Made by a program: the position numbers and the translations under genes
Shown: positions 5,753 through 44,006 of the stretch, piece after piece
Layout of the letters: every line of letters starts with the position of its first letter
Position numbering within the stretch: position 1 is the stretch's first letter
The notes under the pieces: model-generated
Database searches by the model: none
What the model saw: the letters and a program-made list of their open reading frames with translations, nothing else
Told to the model about the DNA's origin: nothing
Origin: Sphingobacteriaceae bacterium
GTDB lineage: Bacteria; Bacteroidota; Bacteroidia; UBA7662
Assembly: GCA_030682795.1 (NCBI GenBank)
Contig: JAUXNJ010000020.1
Coordinates: forward strand, 1 to 64,000
Direction of reading: 5' to 3'
DNA: 64,000 nucleotides

Positions 5753-5785
5753 AAAAAGCCTCGTACTTCACGGGGCTTTTTTATT
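5753..5785 (+). terminator. Terminator-like hairpin between the first and second genes of the ligase cluster
   Basis: AAAAAAGCC...GGGCTTTTTT with a short loop and a trailing T run has the form of an intrinsic terminator. It ends only about 30 bases before the next ATG (5814), too close for a full separate promoter. It may therefore act as a partial terminator that lowers expression of the downstream genes. Confidence 0.65.
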
Positions 5786-5813
5786 TTGCCAAAAGAATCC
5801 TAAAGCCGTCCCT

Positions 5814-6914
5814 ATGAAATTCACCCTCGGTGTAGAAGAAGAATACCAGGTAGTAGACCTCCTTACCCGCGAACTCACCTCGCATGAGCAAAAAATCGTG
5901 GAGGCCGCCAACCGCTTGCTTGAAGACCAGGTGAAGGCCGAAATGCACCAGGCCGTGGTAGAAGTAGGCACGAACATCTGCCAAAACATTGACGAGGCTA
6001 GAGAGCAGGTAACCCATTTACGACGCACCGTATCGAAAGTGGCGCGTGAACTCGGTTATGCCATTGGCGCCGCCGGCACCCATCCCTTTTCGATGTGGCA
6101 AACCCAGCTCATTACAGAGCACCCGCGTTACAACGAAATCGTAAACGAGTTGCAGGATGCCGCCCGCTCCAACCTCATTTTCGGTTTGCACGTGCATGTG
6201 GGCATGCCTGATAAAGAAATGGCCATCCACATTGCCAACTCGGTGCGCTATTTTTTGCCACACATTTACGCCTTGAGCACCAATTCACCTTTTTGGGAAG
6301 GTCGTAACACCGGTTTCAAGTCGTTCCGTAGCAAGGTATTCGACAAATTTCCACGCACCGGCATCCCCGATTTTTTCGAGAGTTTTGCCGAGTACGAAAA
6401 TTATGTGAAGCTTTTGGTGAAGACCAATTGCATCGACAACGCCAAAAAGATTTGGTGGGACGTGCGGGTGCATCCCTTTTTCGACACCATCGAATTTAGG
6501 ATTTGCGACGTGCCCATGACCGTTGATGAAACCATTGCCATCACCGCCCTAATACAAGCTTTGGTGGCCAAATTGTACAAGCTGCGTTCGCAAAACCTCA
6601 ATTTTATGATTTACAAGCGGGCTTTGGTAAACGAAAACAAATGGCGCGCCGGTCGTTATGGCATCGATGGCAAGATGATCGACTTCGGCAAAGAAATGGA
6701 AATCAACACCCGCTCACTGCTGCTCGAATTGCTCGAGTTTGTAGACGATGTGGTGGACGATTTGGGCAGCAGGCACGAAATCATGCGCGTGCACGACATC
6801 CTTAAAAACGGCACTGGGGCCGACCGACAGCTGGCTATCTACGAGCAAACCAACGACTTACGGGCCGTTGTGGATTACTATCTCGAACAAACCTTGCTTG
6901 GTGTTGACGCATAA
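5814..6914 (+). CDS. Carboxylate-amine ligase, GCS2 (glutamate-cysteine ligase 2/YbdK) family
   Basis: 366 residues, the usual length for the family. The N-terminus LGVEEEYQVVD is the family signature; HVHVGMPD in the middle and the Arg-containing strand TIEFRICDVPMT are further conserved blocks of the glutamine-synthetase-like fold. YbdK homologues have weak glutamate-cysteine ligase activity, but their physiological substrates are mostly unknown. Here the enzyme sits between two ATP-grasp-like proteins and an amidotransferase, so it probably makes an amide bond in a small-molecule or peptide pathway rather than glutathione. The start is the first ATG after the hairpin and gives a complete N-terminus. 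Confidence 0.9.
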   Translation: MKFTLGVEEEYQVVDLLTRELTSHEQKIVEAANRLLEDQVKAEMHQAVVEVGTNICQNIDEAREQVTHLRRTVSKVARELGYAIGAAGTHPFSMWQTQLITEHPRYNEIVNELQDAARSNLIFGLHVHVGMPDKEMAIHIANSVRYFLPHIYALSTNSPFWEGRNTGFKSFRSKVFDKFPRTGIPDFFESFAEYENYVKLLVKTNCIDNAKKIWWDVRVHPFFDTIEFRICDVPMTVDETIAITALIQALVAKLYKLRSQNLNFMIYKRALVNENKWRAGRYGIDGKMIDFGKEMEINTRSLLLELLEFVDDVVDDLGSRHEIMRVHDILKNGTGADRQLAIYEQTNDLRAVVDYYLEQTLLGVDA

Positions 6915-35796: not shown

Positions 35797-35872
35797 TATT
35801 TAAAAGAGAACGTCGAAACTGCACGAAGCGTACAATCGACGGTTAAATATACGAAAAGGGAGTTGAAATGGT

Positions 35873-37129
35873 TCATCGCTTTTGGACAAGCAAGGGTAAA
35901 TGCTTGCTACGACCTTCATACTGCACTTCTACATAATACATACCTGAGGCAATTGCCGTTAAGGGAATTTGAATGCCTGACACACCAGCCGGAATCTGTT
36001 CCCGTAAATGCACCCTTCCCGCCGCATCTATCACCCGATAGCTGCCTGCTTGATTGAGTGGGAGTTCAAAATCCAATTTCATCCAATCGGTAGCTGGGTT
36101 GGGATAGGCTTTTATACCTATACCCAACTGCAAATTGGGAGTTGAAGTAAAAATCCCCCTAGAACCCAGCCAGTGCACAATGGTATCGGCTATTTGCTGC
36201 ACAAAGGCAGGACTGCTGTTGGTTGTTAATAGGTGATTGATGTTGGGCAACAGCCAAAAATCATTGGTCACCGTTACTGCCCCTTGAAAGCGGGTGAGCT
36301 CGCTGGGAGGCACATTTACATCGGCACCCAAACCAATGAACAAACTAGGCTTAGCGGCGGCGTTGTAAAAACCTGCCACTGTATCGGTGGCCAGCACATA
36401 ATTACGCCATTCGGGGGCAGTGACACCAAAAAGCGGCGGGGTGTTGAGCGGCGGGGTGCCGGCTCGAATCACACCAAAATAATTCAAAATCTGAGTGGCT
36501 TCTGTTTGTGCTTGCACCACATTGCCATTGCACATTTGCGCAAAGCCCACCAGTTGATTGGCCAATATGCTATCAAAGGGCGTCATCGCGCCTGCCAACG
36601 AAATAAGCGCATGTACATCGCTCCGGCCATTAGCAACAAAAGGAATGAGGCTTGAGCCTTCACTGTGACCTAGCAAGATGATTTGGTTGGTGTCGACCTC
36701 TGGCCGGGTTTTAAGGAAATTGATAGCCGAGCGCACGGGCAACCACAGCTTATCAAAAGTCACCACGCCTAAATTATTGGCATAAGTAAATTCGAGCTTA
36801 TCGTAGCGCAAAACTGCATAACCAGCAGCCACTAAGGCGTCACCCAGGCCTTTATAGGGCTTGAGGGTTTGTCCTACTAACTGCGGATACAAACAAGGCG
36901 CATAGCCGCCAACCAGCAAAGCAGTACCATCGCGGTCGTTGGCTCCGCTGCCAGGCACAATTACTACGGTAGCATAAGGACCCGGCTGAGCGGGCAAACT
37001 CAATACGCCACGTACATTTCTATCAACGTGCATAAACTGCACGGGAATATTCATTTGGGCTTCGGCAAAGGGCGCCAACGTCACGCACAAAACAGCTAAA
37101 ACAATCGTCTTTAAGACACTAATTCGCAT
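35873..37129 (-). CDS. Secreted alpha/beta hydrolase with a T9SS type A sorting domain
   Basis: 418 residues with a signal peptide (MRISVLKTIVLAVLCVTLAPFAEAQ). The hydrolase core includes VVIVPGSGANDRDGT (oxyanion region), the nucleophile elbow LLGHSEGSS and a C-terminal His in LLPNINHLL. Residues from about 335 form a type IX secretion sorting domain: KAYPNPATDWMKLDFEL, RVIDAAGRV, IPLTAIASGMYYVEVQYEGR, ending VQKR. The C-terminal domain directs export across the outer membrane and is then removed. The substrate is unknown; the fold fits a carboxylesterase or dienelactone-hydrolase-like enzyme. Confidence 0.88.
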   Translation of the reverse strand: MRISVLKTIVLAVLCVTLAPFAEAQMNIPVQFMHVDRNVRGVLSLPAQPGPYATVVIVPGSGANDRDGTALLVGGYAPCLYPQLVGQTLKPYKGLGDALVAAGYAVLRYDKLEFTYANNLGVVTFDKLWLPVRSAINFLKTRPEVDTNQIILLGHSEGSSLIPFVANGRSDVHALISLAGAMTPFDSILANQLVGFAQMCNGNVVQAQTEATQILNYFGVIRAGTPPLNTPPLFGVTAPEWRNYVLATDTVAGFYNAAAKPSLFIGLGADVNVPPSELTRFQGAVTVTNDFWLLPNINHLLTTNSSPAFVQQIADTIVHWLGSRGIFTSTPNLQLGIGIKAYPNPATDWMKLDFELPLNQAGSYRVIDAAGRVHLREQIPAGVSGIQIPLTAIASGMYYVEVQYEGRSKHLPLLVQKR

Positions 37130-37216
37130 GGCACGGATTTTTTTTGCGAAAATAACAAATAAAAATCAAATCGACTGGTATTAAAGATGCATGCTATTGA
37201 ACGAAAATCGATACCA

Positions 37217-37972
37217 TCAACGCAAACGATCTAGTTTTTCCTCAATTCGATTTAAACGTTCGTTAAGATCTTTATTGTTGTCTTCCATCATTGCATCAAC
37301 AAATATTGAATTCACCAATGATAATCCAAAAATCCCCCCCATAATAAGGATGAAAATAAAATATGACTTAATCCAAAAGGATTTAAAAGGACTAAGTCCA
37401 CTGCTAAGATTTTCTGGAATATCATACCATCCCTCTATCGTGAATACCTTAAAGATGGAATAAAAAGACCTTATTGGATCTCCAAAATCGACGGGTGATA
37501 ATTCCTTGAATAAAAAAGAAGATACCACTGCTACAACTGAAGTAAACAGAAAAAATGTCAGCAGAATCAGTACAGAAGAACGCATCGCAGCACGTATACC
37601 TCTAATTAAATGCTCAATATTGGGTACGAGTTTAAAAAACCTGAAAAACTTGAAAATCCTAAGAACCCGGAATATCAAAAGAAAATCCATTTGAAAGCCT
37701 GCATCTCCAATAATATGGACTAAAAGCGAAGGTAATGCGAGCAAAACTAAAGTAAAATCAAACAGATTCCATCCGTCTTTGAAGTATCCATTAGGGCCCA
37801 ATATCTTAATCTTGACAATCAATTCAACAACAAAATAGATTGTAAATAAATTATCAAAGAACTCTAAAAAAACAGAGCCCGTTACTCCGGAATCAAATGC
37901 CTCTAGAAGGATTATTAAGGAGTTTAAAACAATGATGATAGCAATATTACGGTCCTTGAATAACCCTTTCAT
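37217..37972 (-). CDS. Voltage-gated cation channel (BacNav/CavMr-like six-helix ion transporter)
   Basis: 251 residues, the size of single-domain bacterial voltage-gated channels. S1-S3 lie at about 9-28, 41-58 and 67-90. S4 has basic residues at every third position (Arg102, Arg105, Lys108, Arg111, Lys114 in FRVLRIFKFFRFFK), S5 is at about 132-155 and S6 at about 203-228. The pore loop carries the filter T178-I-E180-G181-W182-Y-D184. BacNav channels have TLESW; the reported native prokaryotic calcium channel CavMr has Gly after the Glu, so this filter may favour Ca2+ (inference). A C-terminal coiled coil (DLNERLNRIEEKLDRL) fits tetramer assembly. The gene is AT-rich and starts 6 bases after the nuclease gene. 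Confidence 0.88.
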   Translation of the reverse strand: MKGLFKDRNIAIIIVLNSLIILLEAFDSGVTGSVFLEFFDNLFTIYFVVELIVKIKILGPNGYFKDGWNLFDFTLVLLALPSLLVHIIGDAGFQMDFLLIFRVLRIFKFFRFFKLVPNIEHLIRGIRAAMRSSVLILLTFFLFTSVVAVVSSFLFKELSPVDFGDPIRSFYSIFKVFTIEGWYDIPENLSSGLSPFKSFWIKSYFIFILIMGGIFGLSLVNSIFVDAMMEDNNKDLNERLNRIEEKLDRLR

Positions 37973-37978
37973 ATGATT

Positions 37979-39832
37979 TTATTTTGAAATCGCCTTGATA
38001 ACCCTATCTTCTTGAATTAACACATCTCTCATGAGTAAATTATACGGAAATATCTTAAGCTTAGAAGATTTAAATGCGACTAAAATATTATAAAGAGTTG
38101 AGGCCTTAATAAGAGATAAGTTCAACTCATATTCTAGGCCACATTCTTTTATAAAGTCATCTGAAAAATCAGGCGCAACTAGTAGCGACTTTGCAACCGT
38201 AAAGCCATTCTTTTTTGCCAAAGAATCATACGCCTTCAATTGCCTAGAAACGGCCGAAAATTTATTGTACCCGCTATCCTTAGCCGTTTTACATTCAATT
38301 AAAATAAGTTCATTTTCGGAAAGTGAAACCACTATATCAACTTGATCCTTATTAGTATTCATTCGCTTTCTAACTTCCTCATTCACTTTTAAACCTAATT
38401 TTTCAAAAATTAGCTTCGTTATTTCTTCAAATTTCGCTCCAATTTCTGCCTCTTTAATAACAATACCATTCTCTTTTAGTCCATTAAAATCCCGATTGCC
38501 GAGTAATTCAAAGGATTCCAAAAATAAATTTTCAGTGTCCTTATACTTGTCAATAATAAAATCAATGGTATCACTTTTACCTTTTAATCCCAACGACTTC
38601 GCAAACGATAATAGCTCCGTATTATCGATTAATTCCAGCACATCACGCGGCTTTATATTGAAGTCAAGTAAAAAAACGGAAGTTAAAACTTTCTCGTCTT
38701 GGAGTTGAAATGTAGTTCTAACTCTATCATTTAGATTTGGCATTGTAGAATCCAAGTCCAACAACATCCTCTCATACCCTTCATGAGAAATGCCAATTCT
38801 TTCATCCTTTTCTAAATCATTAAAATGATCAGTAAAACTTTGAAACTTTTCTTCAACAGTTGATCCTCTCAAGTTTCCTGAAATTTTTAAATGCAAATCT
38901 GCAAATTCTGAAATCCACTTCTTTTTGTCATTTAACTTTAAAGGCTCTTTGTGAATGTCATTGAATAAAATATCAAACAACGAAATACCACTGTTGATAA
39001 TCACTTCAATTTTATCCTCAAAAGACATCCTCCAATCAACACCGTGTTTCCTGCAAATCAGATTTATTTGTGGCTCTTTAATTGCTCTCAACACCCTTCT
39101 AAAATATTTATCAGCTATAACTTTGCCTCGAATTCCACGAAGCACTTTTACAATTTCATCAGGCACATAGACTGTGTTTGTTTTCCTTGAATAAAACGCA
39201 ATTCCAACCCCCTTTAACTCGTTTATTATTGAATCAATGTCTAGCTTCTTGATAGGAATGATGCTATAATTAACCAATTTTGCCTCTTCTTGCGAAAGCT
39301 CCAATACACTTCTAAGTTTTAAGAGTATTGCCAACTCGTCTGTCGTGATTTTCTTTTCTTGATTATTGAGTGCGTCATTTGAATACGCCGTATTTAGACA
39401 CTCATAATAAATCCTATAATCCCTTAACCTTAATTCGTCAAAATCATTTGCCTCGCCCTCTAAGGCTTTGGTAAATACACCTAAATTATTCTCAATCTTC
39501 TTTAGTTCTAGTTGATAAAGATGCAAGAGCCAATCTGCACGCATGATGCAGTTGCCATCTCTAATAATTATATCGATTAAGATATCTATCTGAGATGTGA
39601 TATTTAGAAACTCTTGCTTAATATATTCTGAATAATCAACTTCAATGACTGAGAATAACTTCTTGATATTTATACTATCGATACCCTTCAAATCCCGAAC
39701 AGAACCTTCGGAGAAAATTTTCTCTACCTCCTTTTTTGCCTTGGGATTATTAGAAAGCAGATTGTCTAAAATTTTCAAAAATGAATTCTTCTCAAGAGAG
39801 TTTAAATTATCTAATACTTTTTCAAGCTTCAT
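37979..39832 (-). CDS. Multidomain protein with a C-terminal PD-(D/E)XK nuclease domain, partner of the channel gene
   Basis: 617 residues. No family recognised for the whole. The first 440 residues are mainly helical and charged. A segment at about 399-430 (LIDNTELLSFAKSLGLKGKSDTIDFIIDKY) resembles a SAP-like DNA-binding hairpin, and the region around 255-282 is a weaker match. Residues about 463-580 form a restriction-endonuclease-like fold: helix EIGAKFEEITKLIFEKLG, Asp499 in QVDIVV, then Glu513-x-Lys515 in LILIECKTAK, and the helix SRQLKAYDSLAKK. This D-x13-ExK arrangement is the PD-(D/E)XK signature. AT-rich and atypical for the window. It is the first gene of a two-gene unit with a voltage-gated channel. 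A role in defence is inferred, not shown. Confidence 0.7.
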   Translation of the reverse strand: MKLEKVLDNLNSLEKNSFLKILDNLLSNNPKAKKEVEKIFSEGSVRDLKGIDSINIKKLFSVIEVDYSEYIKQEFLNITSQIDILIDIIIRDGNCIMRADWLLHLYQLELKKIENNLGVFTKALEGEANDFDELRLRDYRIYYECLNTAYSNDALNNQEKKITTDELAILLKLRSVLELSQEEAKLVNYSIIPIKKLDIDSIINELKGVGIAFYSRKTNTVYVPDEIVKVLRGIRGKVIADKYFRRVLRAIKEPQINLICRKHGVDWRMSFEDKIEVIINSGISLFDILFNDIHKEPLKLNDKKKWISEFADLHLKISGNLRGSTVEEKFQSFTDHFNDLEKDERIGISHEGYERMLLDLDSTMPNLNDRVRTTFQLQDEKVLTSVFLLDFNIKPRDVLELIDNTELLSFAKSLGLKGKSDTIDFIIDKYKDTENLFLESFELLGNRDFNGLKENGIVIKEAEIGAKFEEITKLIFEKLGLKVNEEVRKRMNTNKDQVDIVVSLSENELILIECKTAKDSGYNKFSAVSRQLKAYDSLAKKNGFTVAKSLLVAPDFSDDFIKECGLEYELNLSLIKASTLYNILVAFKSSKLKIFPYNLLMRDVLIQEDRVIKAISK

Positions 39833-39923
39833 GACGACACCATTTGATGCCCCAAATTAACAAATACAAGACAATAACAAGTGTATATCGAATAAAAACT
39901 GATATTATTTCCTTTATTACGCT

Positions 39924-43198: not shown

Positions 43199-43894
43199 TT
43201 AGGCATCCTTTTGCTTCGCTCGTCGGAAGCCCCCTTGATCGGTACCCAGTGACACCAATTTGGCAATCACCACCGCCGGATACAATATACCCACTGCTGC
43301 CAGGCCTACACTCAGCATTCGAGCGGCATAATTAACAGGAATGATGTCGCCAAAGCCTACGGTGGTGAGACTGGCCATGCTGAAATAGATGTAGTGTATA
43401 AAATCGTGCCCTGTGCCTGTTAAACTAAGCTCACCAGTGATTGAACTGCCTAAAACCAACTGAATCAAATCAAACAAAAAAGCCCCCAACAAGGCAATAA
43501 ACAAATACACATTTACAGCGCCCAAGACCCTTTCGAGATTAAAATTACCGTTTCGAAAAAGGAGTCTAAAATTGATTAAAATATTCACAGCCATACACAT
43601 ACACGCCACCACAAGCTCGAAAATGCTGTGCTCCACCGGATAAACAAACTTAGCCATGAGAAACAGCACAAATAGCACTCCGCTACTCACAATCAACTTT
43701 TTATTATCTGCCGACCAAATGCCAACAAAAAAAATTACACTCAGCATCACATCAAACGATTGAATGCCCACCATTTCCACTTCCAACAGGGTTGGCATGA
43801 TGAAAATGGTAAAAATCAACATCAGCAACAGGGTTACAAAACTCACATCTTGCACCCAATAGGCCCTAAAACTGCGTAAAGCTCCTTTAATCAT
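43199..43894 (-). CDS. Potassium channel family protein
   Basis: 231 residues from the ATG at 43894; the frame is open to 43978, but that start is only 28 bases from the divergent SLC13 gene and adds residues before the first helix. Several hydrophobic helices occupy the N-terminal 150 residues. The pore is near the C-terminus: SMASLTTVGFGDIIPVNYAARML, with the K+-selective TVGFGD filter, and a final helix follows. The N-terminal part has no S4-like basic array, so it is probably not voltage-gated. No ligand-binding RCK domain is present. Confidence 0.8.
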   Translation of the reverse strand: MIKGALRSFRAYWVQDVSFVTLLLMLIFTIFIMPTLLEVEMVGIQSFDVMLSVIFFVGIWSADNKKLIVSSGVLFVLFLMAKFVYPVEHSIFELVVACMCMAVNILINFRLLFRNGNFNLERVLGAVNVYLFIALLGAFLFDLIQLVLGSSITGELSLTGTGHDFIHYIYFSMASLTTVGFGDIIPVNYAARMLSVGLAAVGILYPAVVIAKLVSLGTDQGGFRRAKQKDA

Positions 43895-44006
43895 AGTATC
43901 GCAAACGAAGGTACTGACAATGTACAAAATCATCCTAGAATTTAACGGCAAAGCAACTTTGTGGCGCATAATTTTCACGAACTTGCAGCATCTTTAGTTT
44001 CCTTCT

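Follow-up and report, generated by a model that had tools for sequence, protein, structure and literature searches.

An inserted PD-(D/E)XK nuclease gene and voltage-gated channel gene in a Sphingobacteriaceae genome: a facultative pair with a possible anti-phage role

The closest described systems to the locus reported here are the lambda RexAB and Sbash gp30/gp31 pairs, in which infection is thought to open a membrane channel, collapsing the membrane potential (PMC6426596). Like these systems, the present locus is a two-gene pair of the kind carried by prophages and other mobile elements, in which a cytoplasmic, DNA-related protein is combined with a membrane channel. The channel itself is best compared with CavMr, a native prokaryotic Ca channel with the selectivity filter TLEGWVD, in which the glycine at position 4 sets Ca selectivity (PMC7041947). 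No description of a nuclease paired with a voltage-gated channel was found in the literature searched, in agreement with the first-pass annotation of this DNA, which knew of no system pairing a nuclease-domain protein with such a channel.

The window analyzed is a stretch of 64,000 nucleotides, and the following features define the locus within it.

37979..39832, minus strand: open reading frame, 617-aa nuclease gene
37973..37978, minus strand: intergenic gap of 6 nt from the nuclease stop to the channel start, both genes on the same strand
37217..37972, minus strand: open reading frame, 251-aa channel gene
37130..39923, no strand: inserted slot reaching from the hydrolase gene to the DUF4199 gene (comparison with the same-genus genomes G400 and G401, and GC content)

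As the two genes lie on the same strand and only 6 nt apart, a single transcript is probable. Full-length conservation at 49–58% identity and dN/dS values far below 1 in close relatives rule out chance reading frames. The pair forms the lowest-GC 2.6 kb in the window (GC 0.331 vs 0.486), bearing out the initial description of AT-rich genes among GC-richer neighbors. The suggestion that the pair is an inserted unit also holds, as the site is without it in the two genomes of the same genus. The gene order in G400 is DUF4199, a 140-aa membrane-protein gene, the hydrolase and a TlpA-like gene, with the 140-aa membrane-protein gene occupying the slot that contains the pair in the window. In G401, homology ends at window position 35853 and restarts at 39916, and the slot plus the hydrolase gene are replaced by only 263 bp of unrelated sequence. 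Each gene of the pair was found in just one of the 21 genomes of the order, that of the window, where the two are adjacent; consequently, the pair was most simply gained as one event. The edges of the insert showed no convincing direct repeats or tRNA, and no RNA families were found. The hydrolase gene (window 35873–37129, minus strand), which encodes a T9SS sorting tail, is variable as well (compare L024, 6143–7795). Since it is present in G400 and missing from G401, the locus has changed more than once. Upstream of the pair, at a distance of about 4 kb, lies a second channel gene (window 43199–43978, minus strand). This gene is of the K-channel type (Ion_trans_2) and is unrelated to the channel of the pair, and its proximity is probably a coincidence.

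The AlphaFold2 model of the nuclease (pLDDT 80.6) and the sequence comparisons divide the protein into two parts.

Residues 1–460: long helical N-terminal part in the AlphaFold2 model, matching no Pfam family
Residues about 461–590: C-terminal PD-(D/E)XK domain containing E469, D499, E513-x-K515 and Q531

The first-pass annotation had recognized the C-terminal PD-(D/E)XK domain of this 617-residue protein from Asp499 and Glu513-x-Lys515. Results from the family alignment confirm this assignment, as E469, D499, E513, K515 and Q531 are invariant across 25 homologues with identity down to 33%, suggesting that the active site is very probably functional. Among Pfam families, Card1_endonuc is matched over the nuclease domain only (2.6e-5; score 24.2 vs a cut-off of 26.4). 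The commonest Pfam hint is Mrr_cat, which is matched by 11 of 25 members and for which the window nuclease scores 19.5 against a cut-off of 21. The PHROG 34709 profile matches residues 1–615 (E 9.5e-102). In Foldseek searches, N.BspD6I and FokI are the sole near-significant full-length matches (E 1.7e-4 to 1e-3, TM about 0.2); the domain order is similar, and the low TM-scores are attributable to a different domain arrangement. The C-terminal domain of EndoMS/NucS was also matched in the fold search. PADLOC returned no full-length match to any system protein, the nuclease domain alone being weakly matched. Several further domain assignments were considered and rejected. The SAP-like segment proposed earlier has no Pfam SAP match in any of 25 members, and what is seen at about residues 404–432 is a two-helix pattern predicted in the AlphaFold2 model. 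A TerB-like metal-binding domain, suspected from the helix pattern at about residues 137–190, has no Pfam match at E 10. Cyclic-nucleotide sensing by a CARF domain was likewise discarded, as the matches are confined to the nuclease domain and the PADLOC CARF models cover residues 464–584 only. No Pfam match to DUF4747 was found in the nuclease or its 24 homologues.

The gene that follows 6 nt behind on the same strand encodes a single-domain voltage-gated cation channel, as had been proposed. The protein matches Ion_trans (PF00520) at 3.6e-30, and its closest solved relatives in the PDB are Cav subunits and BacNavs. The AlphaFold2 model (pLDDT 73) has a long helix for each of S1–S6, a pair of pore helices and a long, coiled-coil-like C-terminal helix. 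The S4 segment, RVLRIFKFFRFFK, has an arginine or lysine every three residues (R102, R105, K108, R111 and K114), of which R102, R105, K108 and R111 are invariant among relatives. The selectivity filter is TIEGWYD, corresponding to a family pattern of T/S-I/V/L-E-G-W, and both filter and S4 are kept in relatives. Even inside this family, sequences share just 39–53% identity. Based on the glycine at position 4 of the filter, as in CavMr, this channel is probably permeable to Ca. PADLOC returned no match for the channel.

Homologues of the nuclease were sought by a genome-contig scan, in plasmids, phages and IMG/VR, and in sampled genome sets, two of them each drawn from one order (398 and 391 genomes). 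Matches were obtained in 2 of 396 genomes of the phylum, 20 of 247 genomes of the Litoribacter family and 3 of 88 genomes of the family of L003. (L004, from genome G422, is titled 'Rickettsiales bacterium' and lies within the Litoribacter-family sample; the title is probably wrong.) A total of 32 full-length loci had readable downstream DNA, comprising 26 chromosomal loci of Bacteroidota, three Pseudoalteromonas plasmids and three prophage contigs. The channel gene is directly downstream at four of these loci, each in a different gene neighborhood.

The window: gap of 6 nt
Litoribacter populi (L005): gap of 7 nt
Cryomorphaceae MAG (L003): gap of -1 nt
Genome G688 (L101): gap of -4 nt

When all downstream open reading frames of the nuclease loci were compared, the channel was the sole same-strand one to recur at unrelated sites. 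Besides one vertically inherited site by dnaK, no other recurrent downstream partner of the solo nuclease was found, and some solo nuclease genes are followed by terminator-like stems. One solo nuclease gene (L061, genome G428) contains a stop codon near residue 78 and is an apparent pseudogene or an assembly error. The first-pass annotation had named a predominance of unpaired homologues, along with core synteny in close relatives, as evidence against a joint module. The region is not syntenic core in close relatives; the nuclease, though, lacks the channel at 28/32 loci, which rules out an obligate two-gene system, and the channel lacks an adjacent nuclease in 11 of the 12 genomes that carry it in the Litoribacter family (12/247). 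The Cryomorphaceae locus (genome G421) points the same way. Here an insertion sequence cuts the channel at a point shortly past residue 129 or so; a different contig carries its second half, preceded by a transposase end, and the inverted ends match (L104, 1–530; L103, 7830–8375). The nuclease is intact, indicating that the two genes need not be paired and that the channel can be dispensed with. Paired members do not form one clade in the nuclease tree (AU p 0.0125), and the three intact paired channels cluster with modest support (80/85; 75/91 in a second tree). Taken together, the nuclease and channel trees fit a single lineage of channels that became linked to the nuclease and then repeatedly moved or was lost, with gain and loss being indistinguishable.

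The channel family is also found beside a second type of nuclease. Seven contigs in IMG/VR carry the channel family. In L116, L117 and L119, the channel starts right after the stop codon of an HSDR_N-type nuclease (gap 0), and in the integrase-bearing contig L113 the channel comes first, 7 nt before the HSDR_N nuclease. This nuclease has about 360–363 aa, matches PF04313/PF13588 in the L113 homologue and belongs to PHROG 4225 ('endonuclease'). Between the two nuclease families, only the catalytic core is alignable (hhalign probability 5%). The channels of L116, L117 and L119 are under purifying selection, with dN/dS of about 0.06 and near-saturated dS, indicating that their adjacency to the HSDR_N nuclease has long been kept. 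As these three represent one lineage on short contigs, the HSDR_N pairing amounts to two independent cases at most, and the three contigs may be of chromosomal origin. The HSDR_N nuclease is mostly solo, with a channel at 4 of about 80 viral loci. In the phage-like contigs L112 (1825–3577), L115 (47 kb; 5776–6696) and L118 (154 kb; 5971–6783), the channel is found among phage-type genes with no adjacent nuclease, and in L112 it overlaps a radical-SAM gene. Searches of plasmids gave no close channel match (the L116 channel matches at only about 25–27%), and searches of annotated phages gave no channel match. The idea of a two-gene module is thus upheld in part: the pairing recurs in four genomes, and with a second nuclease on four mobile or viral contigs, but it is not obligate.

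The genomic surroundings of the nuclease are mixed. The nuclease of L003 lies beside a type IIG restriction-modification gene, AbiGi and a STAND-like NTPase. In Pseudoalteromonas, three plasmids carry this nuclease gene (90–94% identical) with different cargo behind it (L006, 9885–13742; L007, 2048–5810; L008, 10036–10962), consisting of a metallophosphoesterase with an ORC-CDC6-like gene, SIR2-HerA with SLATT, or no defense gene. A type IV restriction enzyme is encoded near the nuclease in Pseudoalteromonas, and the site is a small defense hot spot. Three members of the nuclease family are in prophages (L010, L120 and L121); in L120 (4091–7845) the nuclease gene immediately follows the genes for a 230-aa membrane protein and an LmuA-like MBL-fold protein (candidate PDC-M48B). 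A defense-island setting is seen in some members, but most Bacteroidota loci are single AT-rich genes amid housekeeping genes, outside defense islands. By guilt by association, the context speaks more for an anti-phage or inter-element nuclease that is mobile and encoded by a single gene than for a house gene.

The explanation proposed here, to which a probability of about 0.45 is assigned, is that the pair may be a mobile, facultative module in which a stand-alone PD-(D/E)XK nuclease and a voltage-gated channel on the same transcript would act against phage in a manner analogous to RexAB. This proposal draws on the co-location and co-acquisition of the two genes, on the conserved active site, voltage sensor and filter, and on the recurrence of the channel with two unrelated nucleases. 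The nuclease would attack invading DNA without a partner methylase, either as a type IV-like enzyme or as one of FokI architecture, and its target could be phage or other mobile elements. The channel would stay shut while the membrane potential is normal and would open upon infection-linked depolarization or a signal from its partner. Once open, it would admit Ca/Na, deepen the depolarization and stop the infection, a role also proposed for RexB alongside RexA. In most genomes the nuclease would act alone, the channel providing a second, dispensable line.

Other explanations must be weighed against this proposal. An unlikely one, and the one that survives best, is that two independent accessory genes share the variable slots of mobile elements and have no joint function. 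Both families are mostly solo, and close relatives of the HSDR_N nuclease (L123–L125, 88–93% identity) lack the channel. Moreover, nuclease and channel occur in the same genome about as often as expected by chance (3 observed vs about 1 expected, from 20 and 12 of 247 genomes). Such stacking does not readily account for the same-strand gaps of -4 to +7 nt in 7/7 same-order pairs, intact or broken, plus one reversed pair, or for a pairing that involves two unrelated nuclease families, occupies four chromosomal sites for the 617-aa nuclease where no other downstream gene recurs, and has been maintained across saturated synonymous distances. Somewhat less probable is that the nuclease alone is the defense gene, as a methylase-free enzyme that is Mrr-like or of FokI/BspD6I architecture, and that the channel rides along, keeping ions or pH in balance or supplying calcium. 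The preponderance of solo nuclease loci, some ending in terminator-like stems, the frequency of the Mrr_cat hint and the N.BspD6I and FokI folds are all as expected on this account, as is a more distant sister group of solo channels, which have a fixed chromosomal place of housekeeping type next to the gene for a DEAD-box helicase. This account leaves unexplained, however, why the channel recurs on phage-like contigs and beside nucleases of two families, and the FokI-type matches are of low TM-score with a different domain arrangement. It is very unlikely that the channel is a membrane toxin restrained by the nuclease protein, with the two forming an addiction or toxin-antitoxin module on a mobile element. 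A two-gene operon on mobile DNA, and a channel that is broken where the nuclease is intact (L003), would suit such a module, but solo channels in 11/12 carrier genomes of one family are unexpected for an antitoxin-dependent toxin, and solo nucleases show strict conservation of the active site. Finally, the flanking genes are ordinary, but the notion that both genes are ordinary core genes of the lineage is refuted by their absence from the 20 other genomes of the order and from the same-genus slot, and by their outlying GC content.

The association of nuclease and channel seems real enough, though 'two-gene system' is too strong a term for it. Points against the RexAB-like module are that nucleases and channels are mostly unpaired, that most Bacteroidota nuclease loci are outside defense islands, that the paired nucleases are not one clade and that the channel is dispensable. 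A bolder and doubtful extension is that these loci might belong to an undescribed class of mobile, modular systems of Bacteroidota directed against phages, where a Ca-type voltage-gated channel that senses infection-induced depolarization would serve as membrane sensor or effector for exchangeable, stand-alone PD-(D/E)XK nucleases. If the recurrent link is true, it would offer a testable anti-phage job for single-domain bacterial voltage-gated Na/Ca channels, the native roles of which are poorly known, and voltage sensing would join the known triggers of infection responses. It would also provide a function for two widespread families of phage-associated nucleases, PHROG 34709 and PHROG 4225.

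Comparison with known systems places the pair near several of them. Neither protein is related to RexAB or gp30/gp31, and the likeness to these systems is one of analogy only. RexA and gp30 have DUF4747, whereas the window protein has a PD-(D/E)XK nuclease instead, and RexB and gp31 have four TM segments and lack both voltage sensor and selectivity filter, whereas the window channel is a six-TM protein with both. The channel is closer to CavMr and the ancestor-like BacNavs (PMC7041947) in being a single-domain six-TM protein with a T-x-E-G-W-x-D/E filter; unlike the window channel, CavMr has no reported gene context with a nuclease. PHROG 34709, which the window nuclease matches over its full length, is a family without assigned function, and in the window a channel follows. 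The HSDR_N nucleases of PHROG 4225 are also stand-alone PD-(D/E)XK proteins borne by mobile elements and joined to the same channel family (L113, L116, L117 and L119), but their nuclease domain is N-terminal and that of the window protein is C-terminal. In having a long N-terminal part followed by a C-terminal PD-(D/E)XK domain, the window nuclease resembles FokI and N.BspD6I, with low TM-scores, and its weak Mrr_cat matches recall the Mrr-type restriction enzymes. Among the loci examined, members of the nuclease family have no methyltransferase beside them, save the type IIG gene near L003.
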